Of a stretch of DNA of 64,000 nucleotides, positions 22,758-51,402 are shown one piece after another. Positions within the stretch are counted from its first letter, which is position 1; each line of letters opens with the position of its first letter. The notes beneath the pieces are model-generated. The model was not told where the DNA came from. It did not search any database and saw only the letters and a program-made list of their open reading frames with translations. Position numbers and translations under genes: made by a program. This stretch comes from Methyloterricola oryzae (lineage in GTDB: Bacteria; Pseudomonadota; Gammaproteobacteria; Methylococcales; Methylococcaceae): positions 62,001 to 126,000 of the forward strand of contig NZ_JYNS01000011.1 of the NCBI RefSeq assembly GCF_000934725.1, in the 5' to 3' direction.

Positions 22758-24371
22758 CTAGCGTAGGAGGGACAGTACGTTCTGGCTCGAGGCGTTGGCT
22801 TGCGAGAGCATCGCCGTACCGGCCTGTTGCAGAATCTGCGTCCGGCTCAGTTCCGCCGTTTCCGATGCAAAGTCCGCATCTTGAACCCGGCTACGTGCTG
22901 CACTCACATTCTCGACCGACACCTGCATGCTGCTAATTGCGGAGCTGAAGCGGTTCTGGATCGCGCCCAAGGTAGCTCTCAAGTCATCAACGAACGAAAG
23001 TGCACCATCGATACGCTTTATTGCGTCATTGGCCTGCTTCTGAGTCGCGACCGTCGCATTACCGACATTGTCTAACTGACTGGCAACCGTCGTCTGGCCA
23101 AACAGCGTTCCAGATGTACTCGTGGTTATTGAATAGCCTTGTGACGAACTGAAAGCAACGGTTCCCACAACCACCGCTGAACCGGAAGCAGCGCCTGCGG
23201 CAACGGAAGTAAGGGTGGTCTTCGCACCGATCAAGAAACCACCGGAGCCGGCCACTGCGGCTGTCTGAGTAGAGCTTGCATTGACGGTCTGAAGATTCAG
23301 CTGGCCGGCGGATGAGCCCGTCGCGCCGTTGGCATTCTTGAAGTTTTGAATCCCAATGTTGTAGCCTTGCGACTGCGTCATCGTAATTGATGCTTTATCT
23401 GCGCTTAGTTCAGCCGTGATACCAGTTGCAGATGCAACATTGTTGATTGCGTTGGCTAAGTCGCTTAGATCATTTGCATTCGTAATATTAGTTGTGATCA
23501 GAACCCCTGTATCCGCCGCCTTGGTCGCTTCGTTTGATCCAAACAACTCCATCTGGAATGTACCGCTAGCAGTCAATCCAGACAAATATGCCTTGGTAAC
23601 AGCGGTCGCGTTAACATTCGTCGTAGCGGCAGCACCGTTGACTGCGTCAGCAACGTACTTGGCACTGATGTTATGTGTCGCTGAACCCGAGACGCCCACT
23701 GCTGTTGGCGTACCAGTGGAACCCGTGATTGTCAACGTTTGAGCTTGAATGAACCCACCCGAGGCCGCGGTACCTGCGGCGAAAACGCTGGTACCTGTGA
23801 CTGCGTTGGCGGCAGTTCCGGATACACCAGTGGCAGAACCATTGGAGACAAGACTGTTTGCCCCAATATCAGTAGCACGCGCACTTCCAATCGAGAAACT
23901 GATTGTCTGCTCGGAGTAGGCGCCAATCTGAAATTTCTGTGCGGTGAAATCGCCGTTCAGAACATTTTTTCCATTGAATTGGGTCTGAGTCGCAATGCGG
24001 GTAATTTCCTGCTGCAGTTGCGACACTTCCTTCTGAATAGACAACCGGTCGGACGCCGTGTTCGTATCGTTAGCTGCCTGTACTGCCAGTTCGCGCATAC
24101 GTTGCAGAACACCGGTCACCTCGCCCAGCGCACCTTCGGCAACTTGTGCGACCGAAATGCCATCATTGGCGTTGCGCTGCGCCTGATTCAAACCCCTGAT
24201 TTGCGATGACATGCGGTCGGCGATGGCGAGACCTGCCGCATCGTCTTTCGCGCTGTTAATACGCAGACCTGAAGACAGTCGTTCCATCGCCGTGTTCATG
24301 GCTATTCCCGACTTGTACAGATTTCTCTGCGCGTTAATTGAAGCAATGTTTGTGTTGATGACTTGTGCCAT
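22758..24371 (-). CDS. fliC: Flagellin, copy 1
   Basis: The 537-residue filament subunit has the conserved flagellin ends: [20 protein letters not shown] at the start with the [20 protein letters not shown] stretch of D0/D1, and [17 protein letters not shown] ... NVLSLLR at the end. The middle (about 180-440), rich in Thr, Ser, Ala and Gly, is the variable surface part and the likely site of O-glycosylation. An AGGAGA ribosome site precedes the ATG and a sigma-28 promoter lies about 78 bases upstream. It is paralogous to the flagellin at 24629-26233. Confidence 0.97.
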
Positions 24372-24628: not shown

Positions 24629-26233
24629 CTAGCCCTGCAGGAGTTGCAGAACGTTCTGCGTAGACGCATTCGCCTGGGAAAGCATCGCAGTACCCGCTTG
24701 CTGTAGAATCTGCGTCCGGCTCAATTCGGCAGTCTCGGCCGCGAAATCGGCGTCCTGGATTCGGCTCCGGGCCGCACTCACATTCTCCGCACTGGACTGC
24801 ATGCTGCTGATGGCAGAAGTAAACCGGTTCTGCAACGCACCCAAGGTTGCCCTCATGTCATCGATGAATGCCAGAGCGCCGTCTATTCGCTTTATGGCAT
24901 CGTTGGCCTGGACTTGAGTCGCCACCGTCGCTTCGCCGACGTTCGACAAAGTACTTGCCTGGGTTGCCGATGCAAACAAGGTGTTAGCGGGGAACCCTGA
25001 ATCAGCAGTACTCGTGATGGAATATCCGGCCGAAGAGCTGAATTCAACGGTACCTATCACAACACCCGCACCCGAAGACCCAGCTGCGAGAGTGGCTTGA
25101 CTACCTACCAGAAATCCCGCAGGAGCCGTCGCTGTAGAACTGGCATCTACAGTTTGCAGCTTGAAGGTGCCGCCACCTGCACCTGTTACGGCGTTCGCGT
25201 TCTTAAACCCTTCGATTCCTATGTTGTAACCTTCCTGCTGAGTCAAGGTAAGACTGGCTTTGTCTGCACTCAACTCCGCGGTAATTCCAGTCGCGGAACT
25301 CACATTGTTGATCGCCTGCTCCAGTGCGGAAAGATCATTGGTGTCCGTTATGGTCGCTGTTACCTGTATGCCACTGGAAGTAGCGGTAGCTTCGTTCGCT
25401 CCATACAGGCTCATCTGGAACGTGCCTGCCACGGTAAAGTTGCTGACATAGGCTTTAGTCACAGCTGACGCATTAACAGCGGTAGTAGCGGCCGCGGCAT
25501 TGACTTTTTCCGCCACGTCCCGGGCACTCAACTGTTTGGCCCCCGTCCCGGTGCCACTTGCCAGCGTCACCGTTGTCGGCGTTCCAGTTGAGCCCGTGAT
25601 TGTTAGTGTTTGATTAGATATTCTGCCGCCCGAGGCCGTACTAGCGGCAAACGCGCTCGTCCCAGTCACGGCGCTTGCGGCGGAACCAGAAACTGCGGCG
25701 GCTGTACTAACCAAAGAGTTTGCGCCAATATCGATCGCCCGGGCACTCCCTATGGAAAAGCTGATGGTTTGGTCAGCGTAAGCGCCGATCTGGAATTTCT
25801 GTGCCACGAAATCGCCATTTAGAATACTTTTGCCGTTGAATTGTGTCTGGGTAGCGATGCGAGTGACTTCCTGCTGTAGCTGCTGGACTTCTTTCTGGAT
25901 AGAAAGCCGATCGGAAGCGGTGTTGGTATCGTTCGCCGCCTGCACCGCCAACTCGCGCATACGCTGCAGAACACCCGTGATTTCTCCCAAAGCTCCTTCA
26001 GCAACCTGCGACACTGAAATGCCGTCGTTGGCGTTGCGTGCCGCTTGATTGAGGCCTCGAATTTGCGAGGTCATGCGATCGGAAATCGCAAGACCCGCCG
26101 CATCGTCGCGGGCGCTATTGATGCGTAGTCCTGAGGAAAGGCGCTCCATGGCCGTATTCATGGCAACGCCGGATTTGGACAGGTTTCGCTGGGCGTTGAG
26201 GGACGCGATGTTGGTATTGATGACTTGTGCCAT
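24629..26233 (-). CDS. fliC: Flagellin, copy 2
   Basis: The 534-residue flagellin shares the N-terminal [11 protein letters not shown](L)NAQRNL and [20 protein letters not shown] stretches and the C-terminal [17 protein letters not shown] end with copy 1, while the middle part has diverged in sequence though it keeps the same overall length and motif order. The ATG at 26231-26233 has TTAGGAGA upstream. No sigma-28 promoter is seen upstream; a sigma-54-like element lies about 128 bases before the start. It ends at its own terminator, so the two flagellins are separate transcripts. Confidence 0.97.
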
Positions 26234-35215: not shown

Positions 35216-37793
<2,578 letters not shown>

Positions 37794-37797
<4 letters not shown>

Positions 37798-38495
37798 GGC
37801 TTGCCGTGATTCCCGCACGTGGCGGCAGCGCACGCATTCCGCGGAAGAATATCCGACTTTTCGCCGGCCGCCCCATCATCGCACATTCGATTGAGGCCGC
37901 CTTGAGCGCCGGCCTTTTCGATCGGGTCATGGTATCCACCGAGGATACGGAAATCGCGCAAGTGGCCCAGCACTGGGGGGCTGAGATACCGTTCATGAGG
38001 CCGCCCAGTCTTGCCGATGCGCATACCGGTACCCACGCGGTGGTGAGACAGGCCGTCCAATGGCATTTGGAGCACAGTCAGCCGGTCGAGCATGCCTGCT
38101 GCATCTACGCTACCGCGCCGTTCGTCCGCGCGCAGGACCTTTCCGAAGCCTACAGAAAGCTCGTGGAATCTGGAAAGTCGTTCGTTTTTTCGGTAACCCA
38201 GTTCGAATTCCCGATCCAGCGGGCGCTATCCCTCAGCCGGGACGGGGCCGTCCATGCCCTTTACCCTCAGTTCCGGGAGACCCGCTCCCAGGACCTGGAG
38301 CCCGCTTGGCACGACGCCGGCCAATTCTACTGGGGGACCGCCGGAGCGTGGCTCGATAATACCGCGCTGTTTTCCCCGGCTTCGCTGGGATTCGCGTTAC
38401 CTTCGCACCGGGTCCAGGATATCGACACTGAGGAGGACTGGCAGCGCGCCGAAGTGCTATTCGAAATACTAGCCAGGGGCCTTGGGCAGAAATGA
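37794..38495 (+). CDS. pseF: Pseudaminic acid cytidylyltransferase PseF
   Basis: The 233-residue protein activates pseudaminic acid with CTP to CMP-Pse. The CMP-sugar synthase motif AVIPARGGSARIPRKNI opens the protein, and STEDTEIAQVA, ATAPFVRAQD and DIDTEEDW are in place. The enzyme normally acts last in the pathway, although the gene comes third. It is coupled to both neighbours by ATGA overlaps. Confidence 0.94.
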
Positions 38496-39520
38496 GAGTT
38501 CTATTCCGCGCCGATGCTTCGACATCCATAGGCAGCGGCCATGTGATGCGTTGCCTGGCGCTCGCCGCGGAACTGCACCGCCAGGGCGCGAGCCACACGG
38601 CATTTATTTGCCGCGACTTGCCCGGCAGTCTCGCTAAGGCGATCCGCGCCGGCGGACATCGTCTGTATCTGTTACCAAACAATGCGGATTGGACGGCAGC
38701 GGCTGATGCGCGCACCTGTCTGGCGGCACTGGAAACTACCAATTGGGATTGGCTGGTGGTGGACCATTACGAACTAGACCCAGCCTGGGAAGACTGTCTG
38801 AGGCGACATGCCAAACGGGTTCTCGCCATTGACGATCTGGGCGGACGACACTTATGCGATTTGTTGCTCGACCAGAATCTCAAATCCGGAATTCACGACC
38901 TTTACGCCCAGCACACACCGGCCACCTGCCGGAAACTGCTTGGACCGCGGTACGCCTTAATGCGGCGACAGTTCGTGGACGCCCGCAATATCCGGTCAGA
39001 CGACTCTCGGGTACGTCGGATCTTGGTTTGCTTCGGCGGAGGTGATACCACCTTGCCACTGCAGAAGACGCTGGCGGCGCTGCATTATCCCGGGAAAGCG
39101 GGGGTCGCCATCGATGTCGTGCTGGCGCGATCCGACCGCTCGCTTCTCGAACAGGAATGTCTGGGCCTGCCCTCCGTCATTTTGCACGACGGCGTGGAAG
39201 ACATGGCGCATCTGATGGCGCAGGCAGATCTGGCCATTGGCGCGGGGGGCAGCAGCACCTGGGAACGCTGCTGCATGGGACTGCCCGCCCTGACGGTAAG
39301 CCTGGCCGACAATCAGGACGCCATCGCCGAACAAGCGGATCGGATCGGTGTGGCCCGACACCTAGGGCGCCTTGAGACCCTCACCGTGCAAGGGCTCAGT
39401 CGCGCCGTTCACGACCTGATCGACGATTCCGCCGGAAGAACCGCAATGTCGCGGGCCGGCATGGCGCTGGTCGACGGCCTCGGGGCAAAACGAGTTGTAC
39501 AAGCCATGGGGGAAATCTGA
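38492..39520 (+). CDS. pseG: UDP-sugar hydrolase PseG
   Basis: The 342-residue GT-B fold protein removes UDP from UDP-2,4-diacylamido-2,4,6-trideoxy-L-altropyranose. The catalytic histidine is His17 in the GSGHVMRC loop. The later GAGGSSTWERCCMGLPAL stretch is the UDP-binding region of the family. Its stop codon abuts the next start, TGA-ATG, so the two genes are tightly coupled. Confidence 0.94.
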   Translation: MRVLFRADASTSIGSGHVMRCLALAAELHRQGASHTAFICRDLPGSLAKAIRAGGHRLYLLPNNADWTAAADARTCLAALETTNWDWLVVDHYELDPAWEDCLRRHAKRVLAIDDLGGRHLCDLLLDQNLKSGIHDLYAQHTPATCRKLLGPRYALMRRQFVDARNIRSDDSRVRRILVCFGGGDTTLPLQKTLAALHYPGKAGVAIDVVLARSDRSLLEQECLGLPSVILHDGVEDMAHLMAQADLAIGAGGSSTWERCCMGLPALTVSLADNQDAIAEQADRIGVARHLGRLETLTVQGLSRAVHDLIDDSAGRTAMSRAGMALVDGLGAKRVVQAMGEI

Positions 39521-40117
39521 ATGCGTATTCTGCTCTTGGGCCCTGAGCGTCTAAGCCTCCTGGGTTTTTTGAAAACCTTCGGCGACGAAGTTAGCCGGAC
39601 CGAGGAGCGCTTGCCGACGCTCACCCGGTCCAGGCCTGATTACGATTTTATCGTCAGTTATGGCTACCGCCATCTGATCCGACCGGACTGGATCGCGGCC
39701 TTCCCGCAACAAGTTGTCAATCTGCACATTTCCTATTTGCCATGGAATCGGGGATCGGACCCGAATCTCTGGTCGTTTCTGGACGATACCCCCAAGGGTG
39801 TCAGCCTTCACTTCGTCGATGCGGGGCTCGACACTGGCCCGCTTATCGCCCAGCGCGAGGTCGCCATGCAGGAAGCTCAGGAGACCCTGGCAAGCAGTTA
39901 TGTGTGCCTCAACGAGGCGATGGAAGAATTGTTTCGTGAGCATTGGCCCGTCATCCGCGCAGGCAAGTCCGTTCCCGTGAAGCAAATCGGCGCAGGCAGC
40001 AGCCACCGGCTCAAGGACCGAGAAGCGGTGGCCCACCTGCTGACACAGGGATGGAAAACGCCCGTGTCGGAATTGGTAGCCGCCTATCGCGCCATGAAGG
40101 AGGCTGGAATTGCATAG
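39521..40117 (+). CDS. Formyltransferase-family protein in the pse cluster
   Basis: The 198-residue protein matches the N-terminal catalytic domain of methionyl-tRNA formyltransferase. It lacks the tRNA-binding C-terminal domain, so it probably formylates a sugar. The catalytic triad is present: Asn67 and His69 in VNLHISYLPWNRG, and Asp104 in DAGLDTGPL. The cofactor would be 10-formyltetrahydrofolate. It lies between pseG and pseI, exactly where a pseH acetyltransferase gene would be expected, and no other GNAT gene is in the cluster. Its likely job is to formylate the 4-amino group of the PseC product. The substrate is inferred from context. Confidence 0.85.
   Translation: MRILLLGPERLSLLGFLKTFGDEVSRTEERLPTLTRSRPDYDFIVSYGYRHLIRPDWIAAFPQQVVNLHISYLPWNRGSDPNLWSFLDDTPKGVSLHFVDAGLDTGPLIAQREVAMQEAQETLASSYVCLNEAMEELFREHWPVIRAGKSVPVKQIGAGSSHRLKDREAVAHLLTQGWKTPVSELVAAYRAMKEAGIA
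40097..40103 (+). promoter_or_regulatory. Ribosome site that decides the TTG start of pseI
   Basis: AAGGAGG lies six bases before TTG at 40110 and inside the end of the formyltransferase gene. No in-frame ATG is near enough, so this near-perfect site supports the unusual TTG start of pseI. Confidence 0.8.
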
Positions 40118-41159
40118 ACCGTCGATTTCATTGTCCGGTCGCGAGCTTGGGTACGCGAATCCGCCCCTGGTGATTGCGGAAATGTCCGGCAATCACAACC
40201 AGTCCTTGGAAAGGGCTTTGGCCATCGTCGACGCAGCCAGCCGGGCGGGTGCCCATGCCCTTAAAATTCAGACCTATACCGCCGACACGATGACCCTGGA
40301 CTTAGATGTAGGCGAGTTCCACATCGAGCATCCCCTATGGGGCGGCCAATCCCTGCATAAGCTTTACCGCCAAGCCTACACTCCCTGGGAGTGGCACGCG
40401 CCGATCTTTGCCCGGGCACGGTCGCTGGGACTCATTCCATTTTCCACGCCATTCGACGAGAGCGCCGTCGATTTCCTGGAATCTCTCGGCGCACCGGCTT
40501 ACAAGATTGCCTCGTTCGAGAATACTGACCTGCCGCTTATCCGCAAGGCGGCGGCTACCGGGAAACCCCTCATCCTGTCCACCGGCATGGCCAACCTGGC
40601 GGAGCTTGATGAGACCGTGAGGGCCGCTCGCGCCGCAGGATGCCGGGAACTCATCCTACTCAAATGCACCAGCACCTACCCTGCCAGCCCGGAAAACTCT
40701 CATCTGCGCACCATTGCGCATATGCGCGACATGTTCAATTGCGAAGTAGGGTTGTCCGACCACACGATGGGCATCGGTGCCGCCGTGGCCGCTGTGGCTC
40801 TCGGGGCCACGGTGATTGAAAAGCACTTTACGCTGTCGCGCGCCGACGGTGGCGTGGACGCCGCGTTTTCGCTGGAGCCAGGCGAATTGGCCAGTCTGGT
40901 GATCGAAAGCGAACGGGCGTGGAAAGCTCTAGGCGAAGTCAATTACGGCCCACACGATGCCGAACGCCAATCCATGGTTTTCCGCCGCTCCCTCTACATC
41001 ATCCGCGATTTGGTTGCTGGCGAGCGTTTGTCTGCCGAGAATGTCCGCGCGATACGGCCAGGATTCGGGTTGCCAACCAAGTACCTCGACGTGATCATCG
41101 GGAGGCCGGTCCGGAGCGATGTCGCAAAGGGTACCCCCGTAAGCTGGGATTTAATTTAG
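40110..41159 (+). CDS. pseI: Pseudaminic acid synthase PseI
   Basis: The 349-residue NeuB-family enzyme condenses 6-deoxy-AltdiNAc (or a formyl variant) with phosphoenolpyruvate to make pseudaminic acid. The TIM-barrel motifs VIAEMSGNHNQ, KIQTYTADT, STPFD, LSDHTMG and EKHFTLSR are present, and a C-terminal SAF (antifreeze-like) domain covers about 290-349. The start is TTG at 40110, supported by an AAGGAGG site, and overlaps the formyltransferase stop by eight bases. Confidence 0.94.
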   Translation: MHRPSISLSGRELGYANPPLVIAEMSGNHNQSLERALAIVDAASRAGAHALKIQTYTADTMTLDLDVGEFHIEHPLWGGQSLHKLYRQAYTPWEWHAPIFARARSLGLIPFSTPFDESAVDFLESLGAPAYKIASFENTDLPLIRKAAATGKPLILSTGMANLAELDETVRAARAAGCRELILLKCTSTYPASPENSHLRTIAHMRDMFNCEVGLSDHTMGIGAAVAAVALGATVIEKHFTLSRADGGVDAAFSLEPGELASLVIESERAWKALGEVNYGPHDAERQSMVFRRSLYIIRDLVAGERLSAENVRAIRPGFGLPTKYLDVIIGRPVRSDVAKGTPVSWDLI

Positions 41160-41178: not shown

Positions 41179-42432
41179 ATGCAAGTGAATGAATTGATCC
41201 AGTGGAAAACGCAGGCCTGGAAGGACCCGCAGATGGTCGCCTGGTACGACCAGCGCATGCGCGACGAATCAGGGATCAACCGGCTGAAGAACCATATCGA
41301 AATCCGGTTGTGCTCTGCCTTGGCGGCGGGGGAAGAATTGCTGGATGTAGGAACCGGAACTGGGCGGGCATCAATTCCCCTCGCCAGGCAGGGCTTCAAG
41401 GTCAGTGCCGTTGACAGTTCTCAGGCCATGCTGAAGCAATGCGCCTTGTTGGCTGGAGACCTCAAGATGGAATTCAAAGTGGCGGATGTGGCCACGCTAC
41501 CTTTTCGCGCTGGGCGTTTCAATACGGTCATGGGACTGAACGTACTGGTCCATTTCCCGCACGTGGACTCAGTCCTTCGCGAGTGGCAGCGCGTCTGCAA
41601 ACCCGGTGGGCGACTTTTTTTCGATCTCCTCTCCAAGGACCACTATTGCGCGGCACATGGCATCTCCGAACCGGAAGCAGACAGGCAGCTGAACAACGTC
41701 CAGTTCGACCGCTACAACATGGCCCTCTCTAGCCGTGACGTCGTCAACCTGGCCGATTCCCTGGGCTTGTCCATCGTCAGCGTCATCCCTTACGGTTTCT
41801 TCATCATGGGCTATCCAAACTACTGGCTGGAGAAAACCTTGGAGAGGACCCATAGCTGGAAGCGCTTCCTCGGCCTGCTCAAATCGGATGACTCGCTCTT
41901 TAACTTCGCCGCGTTCATCGACGCCAACCTGGTCAACCTGCTGCCCCCACTGGCAGCCCCGCGTATTATGATCGCCTTCGACAACAAACCAGACAGGGAT
42001 GGCAACCAAGCGTGGTTTGAGCGATGGTCCAACTTTCAACGCGAAGCCGCCACCCGTGAAATAGATCTGGCCTTTCTGCGTAGCCGCATCCCGACCCTAG
42101 ACGAAAACTGGCGGCGTGAGCTGAACGGCCACCTCCGTCACCCACGGAACCTCGTTTTCCTATATCAGACGTTCGAGACCTTGCGGCTAGTATTGCCGTC
42201 GCTGAACCTGGAGGGCCTGATTGACGGGGAATGGCTGAGCACTCTGGAGAGTTGGCGTAGGCAGGACGCGGCGGATCGTCAGCTCATGGATTTCTGCCGT
42301 AACTGGCCGGCAGGGACAGGGGCCGCAACGGCGCTCGATTTCGCGGGCATCCCGCTGGCGCCCGGCTTCGAATACGCGTTGATGAACCGCTTGGTCGCTT
42401 GCTACAACGTCCGAAAGGCTGACGCCTTATGA
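41179..42432 (+). CDS. SAM-dependent methyltransferase with a long C-terminal region
   Basis: The 417-residue protein has a class I methyltransferase domain in the first half: motif I LLDVGTGTGR at 54-63, an acidic motif II AVDSSQ, and a post-motif VLVHFPHVDSV. The second half (about 220-417) is helical and was not matched to a known domain. The gene follows pseI by 19 bases and overlaps the giant transferase gene by ATGA (42429-42432). It may O- or N-methylate the pseudaminic-type sugar or a flagellin residue; this is inferred from position alone. Confidence 0.78.
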   Translation: MQVNELIQWKTQAWKDPQMVAWYDQRMRDESGINRLKNHIEIRLCSALAAGEELLDVGTGTGRASIPLARQGFKVSAVDSSQAMLKQCALLAGDLKMEFKVADVATLPFRAGRFNTVMGLNVLVHFPHVDSVLREWQRVCKPGGRLFFDLLSKDHYCAAHGISEPEADRQLNNVQFDRYNMALSSRDVVNLADSLGLSIVSVIPYGFFIMGYPNYWLEKTLERTHSWKRFLGLLKSDDSLFNFAAFIDANLVNLLPPLAAPRIMIAFDNKPDRDGNQAWFERWSNFQREAATREIDLAFLRSRIPTLDENWRRELNGHLRHPRNLVFLYQTFETLRLVLPSLNLEGLIDGEWLSTLESWRRQDAADRQLMDFCRNWPAGTGAATALDFAGIPLAPGFEYALMNRLVACYNVRKADAL

Positions 42433-45400
42433 AGCCTGCCGCCATTCTTTATTTCCTGTGGGATAAAAACCTGTCCGTGCTGGACAGTTACCTTTCCCGT
42501 TGCAGCCGCGTCGTGATAACCGGCCACGGCTTTTGTACCCCCGAATTGATGTCCGTGGTCGATCGCCACGGTTCCGCGCTGGTTCGGGTGGAGGACCTGC
42601 TCACGTCAGAGGATCACGGCTGTCTTGCCAGCGAATTTGAACAACGCTATCAGAAGTGCCGGGAATCCTTGCAGCCGTCGGCGGTTACGGACCCGCTCAA
42701 TGGGCTGGCAGCCAGGGAGAAGGTCCTGGAAACCCTGGAGGAGCAGTTGCCCGCCGCCTTGCAATGGATCAAGGCTCTTGAACAGGCATCTTCCTGCTAC
42801 GCAATCGACCTGCTGGCCGTAAACGAAGAGTACATGCTGTTCGCTAGAAGCGCCGTGGCGTGGGCACGCGCGCGCGGCATTCCGTCGCTGCACCTGATCC
42901 ACGGACTGGCCCTAAGCACACCATACACGGTACACCGTCACGCCGACGCCGACATCACGGCCGTGTTCGGCGAACGCGGTGTGGAGCCATACCAGGACAT
43001 GGGAATACCGGATGAGCGCCTGCGCGTCACCGGCAACCCTGCCTGGGACGGCTACCCCCAATTAGCCGCCGCGCGCGAGGACGTCCGCAAGGAACTTCTG
43101 GCCTCGGCGGAATTGTCTCCGGATCGACCCGTGGTGGTATTTGCGACGACATGGACCGCCGACCTGACGGTGATTCACGACACGAGCATCCCAGCGGAGT
43201 TGATGCGGCAGGTTTTCCGCGCGGTGAAGGTTCTTCTTGATACAGAGGGGCTGGCCCTGCAGCTTGTCGTCAAGGATCGGCCGGGTGCCGACTATGTCCA
43301 GGTCGGTCGGGAGCAGGCCTTGGCGCTTGCCCGCCGCGAAGGTCTGGAGGAGGAGGATTTCTGGTATCAAACCACGGATACCGCAAGATGGGTGGTCGCA
43401 GCCGATGTTCTGATTGCCTGCGACTCCAACATTAGCGTCGAGGCCATGATGGCCGGCGTGCCGGCCATCAACTTGCTGAACCTTAATGGTCTGCGCTTGG
43501 GCCCTTCGTTCGATGCCGACTCCGGCATCCTGGAGGTCGAACCCGCGCAACTGGCCGCTGCCCTGCGGCGTTTGCTCACCGACGCGGCGTTTCGCGAGCA
43601 CCAACTGCAGCAGGCCCATGCGCGGGTCGGCTACTACAATCTCGGGTTCGACGGTTCCGCGAGCGAGCGGGTGGCTAGCCTGATGCTAGAAATGGCCAGG
43701 CCCTGCCGTCAAGGCCCCGACGCGATGCCGCCCGCCCCTCGTCACTTTGTCTGGCAGTCGCTGGATGCGCACAGCTCAGCGGTCGAAGACATTCAAGCTG
43801 AATATCACCACCACGTCCGCCACGAGCTCATCGCCCTGTTTCAGCGCGCGCCCAACCGGATTCTTGACGTCGGCTGCGCGGCCGGGGTGACTGGGGAAGC
43901 GATCAAGCGCCAATTTCCAGAGGCCACCGTCATTGGAATCGAATTGAACGAGTCCATCCTGGGCTTGGCACGTAAGCGTCTGGACCGGGTCATCGCGGGG
44001 CGGATCGAAGAGCTCAATCTGCTCGATCACGACATACACCCAGGTTCCATCGACACCGTGATCCTCGCCGATGTGCTCGAGCATACTTATAACCCTTGGG
44101 GTGTCTTGGAGCGACTGAAGCCATACCTGACTGTCGATGCGCAGGTGATCGCCAGCATTCCCAACAGCCGGCATCTGAGCCTGCTCGCAGACCTGGCCCA
44201 TGGCAACTGGACTTATCGGGAAGAAGGCCTGCTCGACATCACGCACATCCGCTTTTTTACGCTCGCCGAAATCGAGAAGTTGTTTAGGGAGACCGGATAC
44301 GTTATCGAGCAAGTGGATGCTACACGTACATTGGATTTTCCCAAAGTAAAGCCTGGGGGCAGCCTCACCGTCGGCAAGCTGGTCCTTAAGGATCTGAGCG
44401 AGCAGGACATTTTCGAACTGCAGGCGTTTCAGTTCTTGGTCCGCGCTAGGCCGACCGATTCTCGCACCGGCCTGTCCGTGGCCCCACCCGTCAAAATCGC
44501 CGTGGTCCTTCATCTGTATTACGAGGACCTATGGCCGGAGTTTCGGAATGCCATCAAACAAATAGATCAGCCATTTACCCTATTCGTTACGTGTCCTACG
44601 GAAAAGTTTTCAGGTACCAGTGCATTGGTCTCATTCGACTTCCCGGATGCGCAGATCTTTCCACACGAAAACCGTGGACGTGACATCCTGCCCTTTCTTT
44701 CCCTGTTGCCAAGCCTTATTTCTGACGGGTTCGAAATCGTCTGCAAGCTGCACTCAAAAAGGTCTGGTCACGTCGAGCAATTGAATGCCCCCGGTGTCAA
44801 ACAGGAGTGCTCCGAACTCGGCATAGACCCGTCGATCTTTCTGGAGAGAGACAAGTGGCGCCACGACGAATTGAACTGTCTGCTCGGTAATCCGGTTCTG
44901 ATCAATAACATTATTGCGGGGCTCAACGCTTCAAGTGGGCACGGATTTGTCGTTGGGGAGGCATTCGACTGCCCGCTGGCCTTCCGGATGGCCAAAAACA
45001 TCGACCTGGTGAGCAAGCTTGCATCAAGGCTAGGAATACCCCTGTATGACTTCACTAATCAGCGCTTCCCGGCCGGTTCGATGTTCTGGGCAAGAACCGA
45101 CGCATTGAAACCCCTCCTCGATCTGAATCTCCAATCATCAGATTTTCCTGATGAGAAAGGGCAGTTCGACGGCACCGCGGCACACGCAATCGAGCGCATT
45201 TTCTACCTAGCCGCCACACTGACAACGAATTCGAATGTGCTGCTGAGCGATGGGGGCAAGGTCTTCGAACGTGATGGGGAAAGCAGAGCTGTTGAGCGCT
45301 CGCCTTACCAACTATGGCGCACGCGCCACGATAACGCAGCCCTGAATAGTGCTAGCGCCGACAACGACCTGGACAGCTGCAGATTCATGCTTTTCGGGGG

Positions 45401-47978
45401 CGAGATGCCACCGGCATTACTGATCAACACGCTGGATTCTCTTGCAACATTCTTTGTGCCCGATTGGAGCCTGAGCATCTTCAGCACCAGCGCTGCACCC
45501 GATGCCATGTTCGATGAATTGGAGAACCTGGAGTGGGTAAAGGTGGATGACCCTGCCGAGCTTCACGCCGCGATCACGGCCCGGGCCGACCGCGCCGATG
45601 AAACATGGCTGATCATTGCCCCTTGCGGAGTCGCGTTCGAAATGCGCCTTCCCTGGATGCTGGCACAGTACGGCCGGCTGAATAAAAATTCGCACCTATA
45701 TTACACCGATTCGGATGTAACATTTCCCGGTCGCAGCGTGGCGGAAGGCTTTCTGCGTCCGGATTTTAACTTGGACCTGCTGCGCTCTTGCGACTATCTT
45801 GGCGAACTTCTGGCTATTCGCCGCACATCTTTCTTGGAGGTCGGCGGGCTCGCGGTTTCGAACGCCGCCATGCTTTACGACCTTGCTTTGCGCGTTCTCG
45901 ACCGTTTCGGAGAAAGTGCGCTGGGGCACATCGATGACGTACTTTACCATGTGCCCGAAAACTGCCTTCGCGTACCCGAAGCGGGAGCGCACCGACAAGC
46001 ACTGCTCCAACATCTGGAACGTAATCAAATAAGGAGCTTCATCTCTGACGGCATGATTCCGGGTACTTGGCGGGTGACATACCTACCTGAGGGCCACCCT
46101 AAAGTATCCATCCTTATTCCCACAAAAGATCAAGTCGATCTGCTGCGTGCCTGTGTCGACAGCATTCTGGCAATGACCAAGTATCCCGACTACGAGATCA
46201 TAATTGTCGACAATCAAAGCACGCAGGCGGAGACCCGCAAGTATTTCGAGTCATTGAAGGTCCATGCCGGTGAGGTCCGGGTATTGACATACGCCAAGCC
46301 GTTCAACTTTTCTGCCATTTGCAATCTCGCGGCCAGGGAGGCCACCGGCGAGTACTTTTTGCTCCTGAACAACGATACTGAAGTCCTACAAGACGCCTGG
46401 CTGGACTTGATGATGTATCACGCCCAGCGCCCGGAGATTGGAATCGTCGGGGCCAAGCTCCTGTTTCCAGGGAGCAAGCAGGTCCAGCATGCCGGCGTAT
46501 TGCTCGGCTTGGGCGGCATTGCGGAGCATCCCTTTCTGGGTCTGCTCGGACCAAATGACCCAGGTTACATGGCACGAGCGGTGGTTGACCAGGACTTGTC
46601 AGCAGTCACGGCTGCCTGTCTGCTAATCCGCCGCAGTGTCTACGAGCAGGTGGGAGGGCTCGACGAAAACCGATTCAAGGTCTGCTATAATGACATTGAT
46701 CTTTGCCTGAAAGTTGGCCAGGCGGGTTACAAAGTGCTTTGGACGCCGCACGTGATGCTGATACATCATGGCAGCGCCAGCCAGCAGGCCGAGGCCCGTC
46801 AGCCCCACAAGGCGCTCAAGGCCCAAGAGCGGTTTGAACGCGAGCGCGAGGCGATGGTTGAAAAGTGGCTGCCCAACCTGGCCCGAGACCCCGCCTATAA
46901 CCGACACCTCAGCCTCATTCACCGAGACTTTCGGGTCGAATCTGACTTCGTCGTCAACTGGGATCCACGCATCCCACCCCAAAAAACCCGCATTCTCGCT
47001 TGGACCCTTGACGGCGCACCCTGCGAATACCGGGTCAAAATTCCCCTGCAAGCCCTGAATCAGGCCCAGGCGACGGAGTCTAGCCTGGTTTACCCACCAG
47101 GCATGGGCATGATCCGCAGCCTCTTGGTGCCGGAGATCGTTCGAGCCGCGCCACACATCTTCACGACCTCGGTTTTCCTGGGGCTGGAAGATCATCTCGA
47201 TATGCTGCGGCAGTTGAAGAAATACACCGAAATCCCTCTGGTTATGCACTTGGACGACTTCGTAACAGCGGTACCGAAAGGCAGCGGGGTATACGAGAAG
47301 CGACACACACCGGGCAACCTGAAGAAGATTTTGGCTCAGGCCGACCGTATAGTGACCTCGACGCAGCCCATTTATCAGTCGGCAAAGGACCTGTGTGCCG
47401 ATATCATGCTGTTACCGAACTATCTTCCGCGCTTCCTATGGGAAGGTTTGGCCTCCCGTCCGCGCCAGGGACAAAGGCCGCGTGTGGGTTGGGCCGGAGC
47501 TATGCAACATGGAGGAGACCTGGCGCTGATCACCGAAGTGGTGAAAGCGACCGCGACCGAAGTCGACTGGGTTTTTTTCGGGATGTGTCCTGACGAACTG
47601 CTGGGTTCAGTCTGCGAATTCCATCCCTTCGGTGCCTTCAATGCTTATCCGCCCAAACTGGCCAGTCTAAATCTCGACTTAGCCATCGCGCCTCTCGAAA
47701 ACAACAAGTTCAACGAAGGCAAGTCCAACCTGCGCCTGCTTGAATACGGCTTTCTGGGGTGGCCGGTGGTCTGCTCAGATGTTCTGCCCTACCGCGATGC
47801 ACCGGTGAAGCGTGTCAGCAACAAGCCGTCTGCCTGGATCGAAGCGATTCGAGAGCGCGTGAACGACCTTGATGCCGCCGAGCGGGAAGGCCAGGAGTTA
47901 CAGCACTGGGTTCTTGACGGTTGGATGCTTGAAGACCATTTGGAGGAATGGGCCAAGGCCTATAGCTTCGGGGTCTAG
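42429..47978 (+). CDS. Giant multi-domain glycosyltransferase/methyltransferase fusion
   Basis: The 1849-residue protein carries, in order: a GT-B-like domain (about 1-425; motifs HLIHG and TGNPAWDGYP resemble 2-epimerase/CDP-glycerol transferase folds); a class I methyltransferase (about 445-650, ILDVGCAAG near 477); a rhamnan synthesis F-like domain (about 688-920, NRGRDILPFL and KLHSKRSGH); a degenerate GT2-like segment (about 985-1190, with LYYTDSDV and a late LRPDFNLDLLRSCDYLG); an intact GT2 domain (about 1226-1480, ILIPTKDQVDLL and LLNNDTEV); and a C-terminal GT-B domain (about 1519-1849). It probably builds or extends a sugar chain, perhaps on flagellin. The exact acceptors are unknown. 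Confidence 0.85.
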   Translation: MKPAAILYFLWDKNLSVLDSYLSRCSRVVITGHGFCTPELMSVVDRHGSALVRVEDLLTSEDHGCLASEFEQRYQKCRESLQPSAVTDPLNGLAAREKVLETLEEQLPAALQWIKALEQASSCYAIDLLAVNEEYMLFARSAVAWARARGIPSLHLIHGLALSTPYTVHRHADADITAVFGERGVEPYQDMGIPDERLRVTGNPAWDGYPQLAAAREDVRKELLASAELSPDRPVVVFATTWTADLTVIHDTSIPAELMRQVFRAVKVLLDTEGLALQLVVKDRPGADYVQVGREQALALARREGLEEEDFWYQTTDTARWVVAADVLIACDSNISVEAMMAGVPAINLLNLNGLRLGPSFDADSGILEVEPAQLAAALRRLLTDAAFREHQLQQAHARVGYYNLGFDGSASERVASLMLEMARPCRQGPDAMPPAPRHFVWQSLDAHSSAVEDIQAEYHHHVRHELIALFQRAPNRILDVGCAAGVTGEAIKRQFPEATVIGIELNESILGLARKRLDRVIAGRIEELNLLDHDIHPGSIDTVILADVLEHTYNPWGVLERLKPYLTVDAQVIASIPNSRHLSLLADLAHGNWTYREEGLLDITHIRFFTLAEIEKLFRETGYVIEQVDATRTLDFPKVKPGGSLTVGKLVLKDLSEQDIFELQAFQFLVRARPTDSRTGLSVAPPVKIAVVLHLYYEDLWPEFRNAIKQIDQPFTLFVTCPTEKFSGTSALVSFDFPDAQIFPHENRGRDILPFLSLLPSLISDGFEIVCKLHSKRSGHVEQLNAPGVKQECSELGIDPSIFLERDKWRHDELNCLLGNPVLINNIIAGLNASSGHGFVVGEAFDCPLAFRMAKNIDLVSKLASRLGIPLYDFTNQRFPAGSMFWARTDALKPLLDLNLQSSDFPDEKGQFDGTAAHAIERIFYLAATLTTNSNVLLSDGGKVFERDGESRAVERSPYQLWRTRHDNAALNSASADNDLDSCRFMLFGGEMPPALLINTLDSLATFFVPDWSLSIFSTSAAPDAMFDELENLEWVKVDDPAELHAAITARADRADETWLIIAPCGVAFEMRLPWMLAQYGRLNKNSHLYYTDSDVTFPGRSVAEGFLRPDFNLDLLRSCDYLGELLAIRRTSFLEVGGLAVSNAAMLYDLALRVLDRFGESALGHIDDVLYHVPENCLRVPEAGAHRQALLQHLERNQIRSFISDGMIPGTWRVTYLPEGHPKVSILIPTKDQVDLLRACVDSILAMTKYPDYEIIIVDNQSTQAETRKYFESLKVHAGEVRVLTYAKPFNFSAICNLAAREATGEYFLLLNNDTEVLQDAWLDLMMYHAQRPEIGIVGAKLLFPGSKQVQHAGVLLGLGGIAEHPFLGLLGPNDPGYMARAVVDQDLSAVTAACLLIRRSVYEQVGGLDENRFKVCYNDIDLCLKVGQAGYKVLWTPHVMLIHHGSASQQAEARQPHKALKAQERFEREREAMVEKWLPNLARDPAYNRHLSLIHRDFRVESDFVVNWDPRIPPQKTRILAWTLDGAPCEYRVKIPLQALNQAQATESSLVYPPGMGMIRSLLVPEIVRAAPHIFTTSVFLGLEDHLDMLRQLKKYTEIPLVMHLDDFVTAVPKGSGVYEKRHTPGNLKKILAQADRIVTSTQPIYQSAKDLCADIMLLPNYLPRFLWEGLASRPRQGQRPRVGWAGAMQHGGDLALITEVVKATATEVDWVFFGMCPDELLGSVCEFHPFGAFNAYPPKLASLNLDLAIAPLENNKFNEGKSNLRLLEYGFLGWPVVCSDVLPYRDAPVKRVSNKPSAWIEAIRERVNDLDAAEREGQELQHWVLDGWMLEDHLEEWAKAYSFGV

Positions 47979-48090: not shown

Positions 48091-51000
48091 ATGAAAAGAG
48101 CTAAATCTGGTAAGAAGCCCAAAGCCCCTGCCGTGGTCTTGGACCATTACATGGAAATGCAGCAGGCAATCCATTATGCGGAGTCTGCGAACTGGCGCGC
48201 CGCCGAAGCTATCTGCAAGCAGATCGTGGCGAAGAACGCCACCCATATCGATGCCATCAACATGCTGGGCGTCGTCGCCATCAAACTGGGACGATGGACC
48301 GAAGCCGTGCAGTTCATGGAGAAGCTCATACGAATCAAGCCGGATTACCTCAATGCCTACATCAATCTGGGGATGGTCCTCAGAGAGATGGGCAATTTTG
48401 AGGGGGCTGCCCGCTATTCCCGTCAGGCACTGAAGATTGATCCCAATAGTGCGTCCGCCTACAGCAATCTGGGCAACGCCCTGCTCAGTCTTGGACGTCC
48501 GCAGGAAGCGGTAGAGGCTTATGAAGCCGCGCTGAAAATTCAGCCAAACTTCTGGGACGCCTTGAACAACCTGAACGTGGCGCGCCGCTCTGTGATGCTC
48601 AGCGGTCAGTTTCAAAGCCCACCGAGTCGACCCTCCCCCGCTCCTCAGCCAAACGCAGGGAAGTTAGAAAGCCAAAGGAACGAGGTTCCGAGCTTGTCCT
48701 TGAAGGAAGTTCCGGCTCGCGACACTATGGCGACGCATAGCCACGCCCAGCCTGCGGTTTCCAATGACCTTGGCGCAGCACTGCAGCGACTCAGAGAGCA
48801 ACTATCGGCTGATGCCAAGCCGCGCCAGCGGACTTTTTTGACTCCTCCGGACCACTCAAATGCGGCTTCGGATGTCAATGCCGAATGGGATGAACTTCGC
48901 GCAACGGCAGAGCGATTGATCAACGAGCGGCGTCATGGAGAGGCAGAACCCATTCTGCGTCAGCTGATCGCCAAATACCCGGAAGATGGTTCGCTGCACT
49001 GCAATCTTGCGTCCGAGCTGATGCAATTGAAACGGCATGAAGACGCCCTGCCCTATTGCCGCCGCGCCGTTCAATTGGCATCCGACCTGCCCGAGGCACA
49101 CAACAATCTGGGCCTTGCGCTCTGCGCGACCGGCGAGCCTGAGCAGGCTCTTTCAAGCTATGACCATGCCCTTCAACTTCGCCCAGGTTTCGTGCCCGCC
49201 ATGGAAAACCGGGCCATTGCCCTGCGGGAACTCGGGCGATTTGAAGAAGCTGCCGCGCTACTGGAAGACGTCTTGCGCATTGAACCTGAGAGAGCCACTG
49301 CTCACTATGAACTCGGTCTGATGTTCCTGCACTTAGGGCACTTCTCCGAAGGTTTCCGGGAATACGAATGGCGACGGCGGATGCCAGAGAATGGCCTGCT
49401 GCCGCTTCCACAGCCGGAATGGGATGGTCAGTCGTTTCGAGGGCGGCGGCTTCTCGTCCATCCCGAACAGGGCTTGGGCGATGCCATCCACTTTGCGCGG
49501 TATCTGCCCAAAGTCAAAGCGTTGGGCGGGACAGTACTGCTACGCTGCCATCCTCCTCTCTTTAAGTTGTTCGAGACACTGCCCGGGGTTGACCAACTCA
49601 TTGGCTCGGACCAACCCCTGCCACATGCCGATCTCCATGTCTCCCTTCTCAGTCTGGCGCGGTACTTCACAGACGATGAATCCACTATCCCGTCTCAGAC
49701 TCCTTACGTCTCCGCACAGTCTTCGCACCAAAGTGCTTGGACTCAACGCCTGGACCAACTCACTGGCCTCAAAGTCGGACTGGTCTGGTCTGGCAACCCC
49801 GAGTTCAAGAACGATAGAAACCGTTCTCTGAGATTGGATGCCTTAGGCCCGCTCACTACCGTTCCCGGCGTCAACTTCGTCAGTCTGCAAAAAGGGCCTG
49901 CAGCCGAACAAGCTGTGACTCCACCTCCAGGCATGGAACTGCTTGATTTGAGCGACCAACTGGACGATTTCGCCGACACGGCAGCCCTCATTTCCTGCCT
50001 TGACCTGGTGATCAGCGTGGATACCGCTGTGGCTCATCTTGCCGGCGCACTGGGCGTGCCGGTCTGGACGTTACTGCCGCTTCCAGCGGACTGGCGATGG
50101 CTCACCGAACGCGAAGATACGCCCTGGTATCCGAGCATGCGCTTGTTTCGTCAAACCCAGTCCGGTGACTGGGAACCCGTTATCGACAACGTGGCTCGCG
50201 AATTACAAGGCCTTGCAAGCGCGCACAACGCAACAAGTGGAAAAAATGAAAATCCTGCGACGGGCTGGCTTGAACGGGCGGCACGCTACTTCCCGGCGGG
50301 CGCCACCATTGCCGTGTTCGGCGACGGTCAAGGACTTGCAGCATGGCTTCCCCCTCAGTGCAGCTTTATCTCCTTTGAAGAGGAAAGTTTCGCGACAGGT
50401 GCCGAGTCACTCAAGGTGGCCTCTCATGTCCTGGTAATCGATGACTCACCATCGCATCTGGGTCTCATCGCGCTTCTGGAGCGCTTGCGTGAAATCAGGC
50501 GACCGCTGATCTTGGTAACCGGCCTCGCGTCCTCGGAGTTGAACGAAACCCTGACAGAGACGGGCTGGCACTGCCGCTCCACCGAAACGGTCGGTTCACG
50601 TACCATTGCCTTGCTGTCCACGGACCGCCAAATCGCGCCGCCGTGCAAGCGCATCGCACTCATCGCGACGGAGGGTTCCAGTCATTTCTCCGCTGCACTG
50701 CGCCTGCGCCTGGTCAACTCCATCTTGCCGCCGGGCGCGGAACTCAACGTCATTGATATCGGGAAGATCGAACAAGCGGACCCGAATTTCGACCTTGCCA
50801 TTGTCGGAACCGGGGGCGATTTGGACAGCGCACAGATCTCCGAGGGACTTCTTAACTTCTTGGATCATGTGCCTCGGGCGATCGGCCTGTTCGGAATCGG
50901 CGATCGCGACAGTCAAAACGACAAAATTGCATGCCTGCTTGACAGGCTTTTCCTGTGGGGCGCGCGGCACGAGCAAGATGTGTTGCTTTATGGGCGCGGG

Positions 51001-51402
51001 CGCGGCAATGTGCTGCACTTCGGCGACTGGCTGGTTGACGCATTCCCGATGGCATCCGGTACCGGCGGCAACTCCCTGCAGTTGGACAATTCAGCGTTAC
51101 TTGATGCAGCGGAGAACATACTCGCGCAGCTACGGAGACATCATCGCGCGGCCGTTGGACATCCCGACCTGCTACTCGCTGCCCTCTGTTACTGCGATGA
51201 ACTCTCGTTTCACGACGAGCATAACCAGGCGGCGGGCCGCTTTCGGGCTTTGCTGATCGACGTGCTCGGGCGAAGCTATGCGGAAAACGAAGCCATTGCG
51301 GTCGATCGGGTGGCGGTAATGGCCTACAAAGCCCGTACCCGACTCATGATCGATGAACTTCGCAAAGTCTTGGCGATCGCGCTGGGAATTCAAGCACCTT
51401 GA
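48091..51402 (+). CDS. TPR-glycosyltransferase with unrecognised C-terminal region
   Basis: The 1103-residue protein has TPR repeats at about 20-170 and 285-440, separated by a disordered linker. Next, at about 450-705, is a GT-B-like transferase region of the GT9/GT41-like type seen in flagellin glycosylation proteins (RRLLVHPEQGLGDAIHFARYL, VGLVWSGNPEFKNDRNRS, ISVDTAVAHLAGALGVPVW). From about 735 to 1103 a further domain with a Rossmann-like start and a GTGGD stretch was not recognised. The frame opens 74 codons earlier inside the giant gene; the ATG at 48091 has AGGAA before it and a natural N-terminus. It follows the giant gene by 112 bases. Confidence 0.87.
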   Translation: MKRAKSGKKPKAPAVVLDHYMEMQQAIHYAESANWRAAEAICKQIVAKNATHIDAINMLGVVAIKLGRWTEAVQFMEKLIRIKPDYLNAYINLGMVLREMGNFEGAARYSRQALKIDPNSASAYSNLGNALLSLGRPQEAVEAYEAALKIQPNFWDALNNLNVARRSVMLSGQFQSPPSRPSPAPQPNAGKLESQRNEVPSLSLKEVPARDTMATHSHAQPAVSNDLGAALQRLREQLSADAKPRQRTFLTPPDHSNAASDVNAEWDELRATAERLINERRHGEAEPILRQLIAKYPEDGSLHCNLASELMQLKRHEDALPYCRRAVQLASDLPEAHNNLGLALCATGEPEQALSSYDHALQLRPGFVPAMENRAIALRELGRFEEAAALLEDVLRIEPERATAHYELGLMFLHLGHFSEGFREYEWRRRMPENGLLPLPQPEWDGQSFRGRRLLVHPEQGLGDAIHFARYLPKVKALGGTVLLRCHPPLFKLFETLPGVDQLIGSDQPLPHADLHVSLLSLARYFTDDESTIPSQTPYVSAQSSHQSAWTQRLDQLTGLKVGLVWSGNPEFKNDRNRSLRLDALGPLTTVPGVNFVSLQKGPAAEQAVTPPPGMELLDLSDQLDDFADTAALISCLDLVISVDTAVAHLAGALGVPVWTLLPLPADWRWLTEREDTPWYPSMRLFRQTQSGDWEPVIDNVARELQGLASAHNATSGKNENPATGWLERAARYFPAGATIAVFGDGQGLAAWLPPQCSFISFEEESFATGAESLKVASHVLVIDDSPSHLGLIALLERLREIRRPLILVTGLASSELNETLTETGWHCRSTETVGSRTIALLSTDRQIAPPCKRIALIATEGSSHFSAALRLRLVNSILPPGAELNVIDIGKIEQADPNFDLAIVGTGGDLDSAQISEGLLNFLDHVPRAIGLFGIGDRDSQNDKIACLLDRLFLWGARHEQDVLLYGRGRGNVLHFGDWLVDAFPMASGTGGNSLQLDNSALLDAAENILAQLRRHHRAAVGHPDLLLAALCYCDELSFHDEHNQAAGRFRALLIDVLGRSYAENEAIAVDRVAVMAYKARTRLMIDELRKVLAIALGIQAP

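Follow-up and report, generated by a model that had tools for sequence, protein, structure and literature searches.

In our view, the 1849-residue fusion protein encoded in the analysed DNA of Methyloterricola oryzae (a stretch of 64,000 nucleotides, hereafter the window) quite probably acts in the cytoplasm as an assembly line for the flagellin glycan, of the same kind as FgtA (PA1091) of Pseudomonas aeruginosa. The C-terminal core would attach the first sugar by means of its last domain (GTB2), the front modules would extend and finish the chain, and the N-terminal domain (GTB1) would add pseudaminic acid (Pse). The initial annotation had put the protein forward as a new flagellin glycan assembly factor. 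A role in flagellin glycosylation is indeed likely, judging from the homology of the core to the protein found at the FgtA position and from the flagellar context of the relatives, with the qualification that the fusion is a variant of the FgtA kind and not new in kind.

Domain anatomy and genomic surroundings

The frame of the fusion runs from ATG to stop over 1849 codons, has no internal stop and lies within one contig (Table 1). The genome contains no other full-length match to it, five further matches being to single domains. The presence of six glycan-processing domains in this frame, as read initially, was confirmed by the open reading frame, by Pfam, by profiles built from relatives and by structure models; the bounds of all six domains (e.g. 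residues 1-427 for GTB1 and 689-929 for the RgpF-like domain) were set with those profiles. The Pfam models Methyltransf_23 (residues 459-628), RgpF (683-929) and Glycos_transf_2 (1227-1408) scored above their curated cut-offs. The RgpF match (PF05045, 126.9 bits versus a cut-off of 25) spans model positions 267-498 of 503, i.e. the C-terminal half of the model, and the methyltransferase domain (MT) aligned end to end with PDB entry 3cc8 (E 5.7e-39). Both GT-B domains, like the degenerate GT2 domain, remained under the Pfam cut-offs, yet the mapping by structure that had been proposed as a check revealed GT-B folds at both ends as well as the tandem GT2 pair.

The model of the core (residues 946-1849; 77 of 80 relatives passed the alignment filter and 51 of these were used) had a pLDDT of 92.5 and a pTM of 0.91. 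The model of the N-terminal half, for which 11 of 19 front-module homologues were taken into the alignment, was weaker and only fair (pLDDT 74.4, pTM 0.48). GTB2 (residues ~1519-1849) has a GT4-type GT-B fold (6kih, Z 26.2, 2.9 A, 312 residues aligned) and GT2b matched the polypeptide GalNAc transferases (6nqt, Z 24.1, 3.2 A, 255 aligned). The best Foldseek match of the GT2a-GT2b pair was the tandem-GT2 chondroitin polymerase K4CP (2z87, E 2.8e-18); as the TM-score was only 0.20-0.30, the likeness is one of single domains and not of domain arrangement. No TPR was present among the 15 families listed for the fusion, which thus does not have the TPR plus GT-B layout of FlmG.

Table 1. Coordinates of the fusion, its domains and its neighbours in the window
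Feature	Position	Strand	Basis and remarks
FliD	20191..22218	-	named from sequence
Flagellin 1	22758..24371	-	sequence match
Flagellin 2	24629..26233	-	sequence match
PseB	35615..36658	+	TIGR03589, 538 bits (cut-off 407.75)
PseC	36610..37797	+	TIGR03588, 533 bits (cut-off 423.5); longest frame, TTG start; true start may be ~36655
PseF, CMP-pseudaminate synthetase	37794..38495	+	TIGR03584, 321 bits (cut-off 205.7)
PseG	38492..39520	+	TIGR03590, 272.5 bits (cut-off 153.55)
Formyltransferase-like gene, pseG/pseI interval	39521..40117	+	PF00551, 54.7 bits (cut-off 26.1)
PseI	40110..41159	+	TIGR03586, 488.6 bits (cut-off 340.25)
MT417, 417-aa methyltransferase	41179..42432	+	stop overlaps fusion start codon in ATGA
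Fusion GTB1-MT-RgpF-GT2a-GT2b-GTB2, 1849 aa	42429..47978	+	ORF list, translation, Pfam, relatives' profiles
GTB1, residues 1-428	42429..43712	+	GT-B fold (model); candidate CMP-nonulosonate transferase
MT, residues 442-676	43752..44456	+	class I SAM methyltransferase; Pfam, PDB match, relatives' profiles
RgpF-like domain, residues 683-929	44475..45215	+	Pfam
GT2a, residues 994-1201	45408..46031	+	GT-A fold without DxD, probably inactive; profiles, motif, model
GT2b, residues 1208-1513	46050..46967	+	GT2, NND motif intact; Pfam, motif, model
GTB2, residues 1522-1845	46992..47963	+	GT4-type GT-B; profiles, model; candidate flagellin O-glycosyltransferase
TPR-GT, TPR protein with glycosyltransferase-9-like part	48091..51402	+	start uncertain, frame open from 47869; GT9 25.3 bits (cut-off 22)

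The genomic context bears out the reading of the locus as a pse cluster. The fusion is preceded by pseB, pseC, pseF, pseG, the formyltransferase-like gene, pseI and MT417, in this order, and followed by TPR-GT. All five Pse enzymes exceeded their NCBIfam equivalog cut-offs, and the proposed coupling to a second methyltransferase is evident from the overlap of MT417 with the start codon of the fusion. With a formyltransferase-like gene between pseG and pseI, and no gene of the cluster named PseH in the NCBIfam profile search, the product may be N-formyl pseudaminic acid. Upstream of pseB, an 892-aa frame (32537-35215) resembles, by eye, an ADP-forming acyl-CoA synthetase with a C-terminal GNAT domain. 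The C-terminal ~390 residues of TPR-GT were left without assignment and its layout is like that of FlmG. A search for the Maf flagellin transferase (PF01973), which had four archaea as positive controls and an unproven sensitivity for bacterial Maf proteins, gave no match in the M. oryzae genome or in G231, another genome, whose GTB1-MT-core fusion is discussed below.

The two flagellins and FliD are encoded in the same window, 16-22 kb from the fusion and on the opposite strand. The FliD is similar to the protein annotated as FliD in P. aeruginosa loci and is flanked by FlaG/FliS-like frames. No further flagellin was found in the genome: another Flagellin_N match (442 aa, 76.6 bits) was set aside as FlgL-like.

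A core shared with the FgtA-type protein

Relatives were collected by scanning named genomes with the core, and the best 80 of 364 were kept; the counts given here therefore describe the closest relatives. The core-bearing frames among these 80 range from 773 aa (cut by a contig end) to 2974 aa, and their front parts vary among genomes. The largest are themselves fusions of a like kind, with 2974 aa in Azospira sp. I13 (L053) and 2593 aa at L048.

The C-terminal ~860 residues of the fusion (GT2a-GT2b-GTB2) are homologous to those of a 1694-aa P. aeruginosa protein (38% identity over 879 columns, E 4e-126), which falls inside the tree of the best 80 of 364, beside Pseudomonas relatives and on a long branch. 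The record compared is NZ_CP131792.1 and not PAO1 itself; we take its protein for the counterpart of PA1091 because of where it lies and of how the domains are described in PMC11833859. Like the fusion, this protein of the b-type flagellin glycosylation island is a multi-domain protein with donor-making genes and a methyltransferase just upstream. More specifically, flgL, a methyltransferase, a phosphatase and a nucleotidyltransferase lie on one side and fliC-flaG-fliD-fliS follows just downstream. The two proteins differ at the N-terminus, where the FgtA-type protein has a PF04464 phosphotransferase-like module (49.2 bits) and the fusion, which has no match to PF04464, has GTB1-MT-RgpF. The same record, of 847 kb and labelled as a P. 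aeruginosa plasmid, holds flgJ-flgK-flgL, the b-type flagellin glycosylation genes, fliC and fleQSR.

A function for the core is suggested by work on PAO1. In the accessible text of PMC11833859 the flagellin of a pa1091 insertion mutant is described as nonglycosylated, the glycan of mutants in three genes upstream of pa1091 as stopping at the deoxyhexose, and FgtA as a GT2 enzyme. The available part of PMC10714395 maps its transferase activity, by predicted structure, to a CD0240-like domain. A comparison of the catalytic motifs suggests a different assignment. The expected pair of a degenerate and an intact GT2 domain was borne out, and the proposed check of metal-binding residues divides accordingly: GT2b kept its NND motif, which was seen in 80 of 81 rows (DDD in the remaining one), whereas the DxD place of GT2a reads P-C-G in the window and the second Asp is lost. 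In fact, this position can be read in 80 rows (the window and 79 relatives, one row being cut), and not one of them has the Asp; Gly (77), Pro (2) or Glu (1) is found instead. Among the tandem-GT2 relatives without GTB2, 15 distinct places after merging of 21 printed rows (six places had been fetched twice), DxD was kept in 10 and lost in five, four of which are much alike. Thus, the loss of the GT2a motif is general in the FgtA class, but not confined to it. QAGD replaces the DxD of GT2a in tandem-GT2 proteins without GTB2 from four genomes that belong to the same family as the window (L017-L020).

In the P. aeruginosa protein it is GT2b that has decayed. This domain has lost NND and departs from 24 of the 65 columns that are conserved in at least 90% of the rows (two of the 24 being gaps), in line with a one-sugar glycan, whereas its GTB2 departs from only 3 of 73 such columns. 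Since a single deoxyhexose was reported for this flagellin, the intact GTB2 is the likeliest linker transferase, and by these sequence comparisons GTB2 is probably the domain that attaches the sugar to flagellin. This disagrees with the published label of FgtA as a GT2 enzyme (PMC11833859); a GT-B domain is proposed in neither PMC10714395 nor PMC11833859, as far as the accessible text of the two papers goes.

The core often lies among flagellar genes. In 47 of the best 80 of 364 relatives a filament gene (FliC, FlaG, FliD or FliS) was found in the flank examined. A flagellin shared the strand of the core in 43 of these 47 and was no more than 1500 bp away in 35. Six further relatives had only FlgJ, FlgK or FlgL, which brings the filament or hook-associated total to 53. 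Many flanks end at contig ends; a flank of 3 kb or more was available on each side at 53 loci, and 41 of these are flagellar. In Methylotuvimicrobium buryatense 5G (L044) the core gene, a frame of 1489 aa, directly precedes fliC. G231 has the contiguous order flgL-pseBCFGI-MT417-[GTB1-MT-core, 1609 aa]-fliC-flaG-fliD-fliS, in which FlgL was named by a weak flagellin match and FlaG by position only. The initial annotation would have been undermined by relatives in which the domains are split and lack any link to flagella. In Chromobacterium haemolyticum (L084) they are indeed split into neighbouring genes, one for GTB1-MT (667 aa) and one for the core, yet the pair lies between pse genes and fliC.

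Exchangeable front modules and the nature of GTB1

A census of the front parts covered 68 relatives and the window, leaving out eight relatives with an open N-terminus and four with almost no N-terminal part. The 69 front parts matched Glycos_transf_2 (32), Methyltransf_11 (24), Glyco_trans_1_4 (13), RgpF (10), TPR_19 (7), FkbM (5) and GT9 (4), several matches per part being possible. The fusions of RgpF with the core lie beside flagellar genes at 8 of 10 loci. GTB1 was found in 10 cases, i.e. the window, G231 and eight of the best 80 of 364 relatives, and GTB1-MT was joined with RgpF at no locus among these 80, nor in G231. A wider survey found GTB1 in two of 369 genomes of the class (M. oryzae included) and, within the order of G231, in one of 31 genomes (G231 itself).

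MT417 accompanies GTB1 at all 10 loci, and among the relatives was found with 8 of 8 that have GTB1 versus none of the 72 that do not (p 3.4e-11). For PseI the corresponding numbers are 5 of 8 versus 2 of 72 (p 4.6e-5), and a PseI-like gene is present at 7 of the 10 loci when the window and G231 are included; the rows are partly related, which makes both p-values optimistic. No association was seen with TPR-GT (1 of 8 versus 7 of 72, p 0.59). In the core tree, where the group without GTB1 did not include the eight relatives whose N-terminus is open, the 10 GTB1 rows stand at six separate places, requiring six changes that are all forced by well-supported branches. The closest company of the window's own core in this tree consists of three cores from Tepidiphilus and one from Rhodocyclales, all without GTB1. 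A single GTB1 clade was rejected (p-AU 1.7e-90, quick tree); the GTB1-MT cassette has thus been exchanged, or lost, repeatedly. We found no published description of such a module-swapping family in the open-access literature searched. At one GTB1 locus (L102) no pse gene was found upstream of MT417-GTB1, the frames there resembling, by eye, an aldolase, a cyclase and an AAC(3)-like enzyme; this locus may make another donor sugar.

The family to which GTB1 belongs is less easily named. The best fold match of residues 1-426 was a UDP-GlcNAc 2-epimerase, itself of GT-B fold (7vz6, Z 25.0, 3.8 A, 334 aligned), with GT-B transferases close behind, such as BshA (Z 22.5, 4.9 A, 338 aligned) or TarL (Z 21.5, 3.9 A, 319 aligned). 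NeuC and TagF were also among the next matches. The epimerase family PF02350 stayed below its cut-off, with matches in two of the 10 members at E values down to 0.0014 (16.7 bits for the copy of C. haemolyticum versus a cut-off of 30.6) and none in the window. PF04464 matched one of 10 (E 1.9e-4), so that a resemblance to PF04464/TagF-like enzymes is a lead only. No safe family emerged from Pfam, from a PDB profile search (best E 0.26) or from hhalign with the N-terminal module of the P. aeruginosa protein (probability 6.6%).

In NCBIfam, all 10 GTB1 sequences matched NF046086, the 'BFO_1060 family glycosyltransferase', at E 0.1 or better (best E 1.2e-9), although far below its cut-off of 200 bits (20.5 bits for GTB1 of the window); TIGR04396 matched nine of 10 and a Kdo transferase model two of 10. 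BFO_1060 may be the counterpart of GtfS in another strain of Tannerella forsythia. Its link to the Tannerella nonulosonate transferase is unconfirmed, the name BFO_1060 being absent from the open-access literature searched. In 398 genomes of the phylum the model hit 19 places, spread over 16 genomes, of which a single one exceeded the cut-off. Among 17 neighbourhoods, 10 had a PseI/NeuB-like frame (>170 bits), two more had only a PseF-like frame (>160 bits) and five had neither; these are mostly remote members, viewed without a matched background, and the weaker PseF matches may be Kdo enzymes. Together with the pse neighbourhood, the NF046086 matches make GTB1 a fair candidate for a CMP-Pse transferase, and more broadly a lead towards a CMP-nonulosonate transferase. 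The D/E-D/E-G and HP motifs of sialyltransferases, as defined in the consulted part of PMC6388019, were not conserved in GTB1 (alignment of 10 rows, by eye).

Proposed assembly of the glycan and its alternatives

For the location, the acceptor, the order of steps and the donor of each domain we infer the following. The C-terminal core would dock on flagellin in the cytoplasm, where GTB2 would attach the first sugar, for which a deoxyhexose is plausible because the genome contains an RmlD gene above cut-off. The dead GT2a would serve as a scaffold and the live GT2b would add the second sugar. The front modules would be exchangeable, with the RgpF-like domain adding a further sugar and MT and MT417 methylating the chain. 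Finally, GTB1 would add the terminal sugar, most likely pseudaminic acid, from the CMP-Pse made by the genes just upstream.

Several known systems offer parallels. In Pseudomonas syringae (Fgt1/VioT/VioM), fgt1 and fgt2 lie upstream of fliC, rhamnose is bound to Ser and the terminal amino sugar is methylated, according to the part of PMC3927599 consulted, but the proteins are separate; this likeness is one of description. The polar flagellin of Aeromonas has a heteroglycan in which a linking Pse derivative carries Hex and HexNAc, variably methylated or phosphorylated; the rest of its chain needs Fgi-1, which, unlike the fusion, is a lone 327-aa GT2 protein (PMC7874193, accessible text). FlmG of Caulobacter, a 596-aa TPR/GT-B protein, transfers Pse to flagellin in the cytoplasm and is reported to be sufficient for this glycosylation (PMC7591256, in part). 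Its likeness to the TPR-GT of the window is one of layout, TPR plus glycosyltransferase. GtfS, the Pse transferase of T. forsythia, is a 445-aa GT-B enzyme encoded beside pseI, the knock-out of which loses the Pse residue (PMC6388019 and PMC6120980, in part); here too the likeness to GTB1 is one of description.

Some observations run counter to a role in flagellin glycosylation. The flagellins of the window are 16 kb away on the other strand, whereas 35 of the 80 relatives have one within 1500 bp, and the flank examined lacks flagellar genes in 6 of the 8 relatives with GTB1 (a FleQ-like match of 230 bits near locus L111 was not scored as flagellar). The fusion might then build a Pse-containing surface polysaccharide (O-antigen or capsule) in M. 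oryzae, with no part in flagellin glycosylation. RgpF is a rhamnan synthesis family, and the neighbours of three of the four listed tandem-GT2 relatives without GTB2 (L025-L027) resemble, by eye, ABC polysaccharide exporters. In addition, 12 of the 53 well-flanked core relatives are non-flagellar, six of them with GTB1. A Flagellin_N match, possibly to FlgL, was found elsewhere in ten of these 12 genomes but not in the other two; all six with GTB1 have such a match, weak in five (31-57 bits) and again perhaps including FlgL. We nevertheless regard a surface polysaccharide as improbable. Filament or hook-associated genes accompany cores with GTB2 in 53 of the 80 relatives, the FgtA-type protein is a homologue of the core, DxD is retained in GT2a only where GTB2 is missing, and no gene between 35.6 and 51.4 kb was recognised as coding for an exporter or polymerase. 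An assembly error or a decaying pseudogene is scarcely credible as the origin of the fusion. Among the loci compared, only the window has the six-domain combination, and no plasmid record covers 80% of it. However, the frame is open within a single contig, GTB1-MT-core and MT-RgpF-core sub-fusions occur in identical order in other genomes, MT is complete along its template and GT2b and GTB2 have kept their conserved motifs.

A division of labour deserves more weight, although we still consider it unlikely: TPR-GT could itself attach Pse to flagellin in the manner of FlmG, while the fusion would only extend this Pse or build an unrelated second glycan on flagellin, GTB1 being a hexosyltransferase or epimerase-like and no nonulosonate transferase. 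The sufficiency of FlmG and the linking Pse of Aeromonas are precedents, the best fold matches of GTB1 are epimerases, and in L051 and L038 the core is separated from fliC by a TPR-GT gene, such a gene being a neighbour of the core at other loci too. Yet G231, with its pse genes, MT417 and fusion, has no match to the glycosyltransferase part of TPR-GT (E 1e-5) and none to PF01973, and GTB1 goes with PseI and not with TPR-GT.

Returning to the assembly of the flagellin glycan by the fusion, the observations can be joined in a wider reading, which we put forward tentatively and hold to be somewhat short of an even chance. GTB1 would represent a new family of CMP-nonulosonate transferases, a plug-in cassette with MT417 and MT that was joined several times to FgtA-class cores, and the FgtA class would be a general flagellin 'assembly arm' in which attachment is due to the GT-B domain and not to GT2. 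The GT2a scaffold and GT-B linker would then be constant, and the front modules would be swapped to match the donor cassette just upstream, i.e. CDP-dimethylthreonine, as proposed for P. aeruginosa, or CMP-Pse in the window. The flagellin-attaching activity of FgtA would move from its GT2 domain to the C-terminal GT-B domain, which names the domain expected to make the protein-sugar bond. As a rule, flagellin glycans would diversify by exchange of modules before a fixed, flagellin-directed core. Moreover, where bacteria with pse genes and flagella have no recognised Maf, GTB1 would be a candidate for the missing Pse transferase. In Azospira (L053), the core has TPR-GT matches of the size of FlmG, with 585 and 610 aa, as neighbours.
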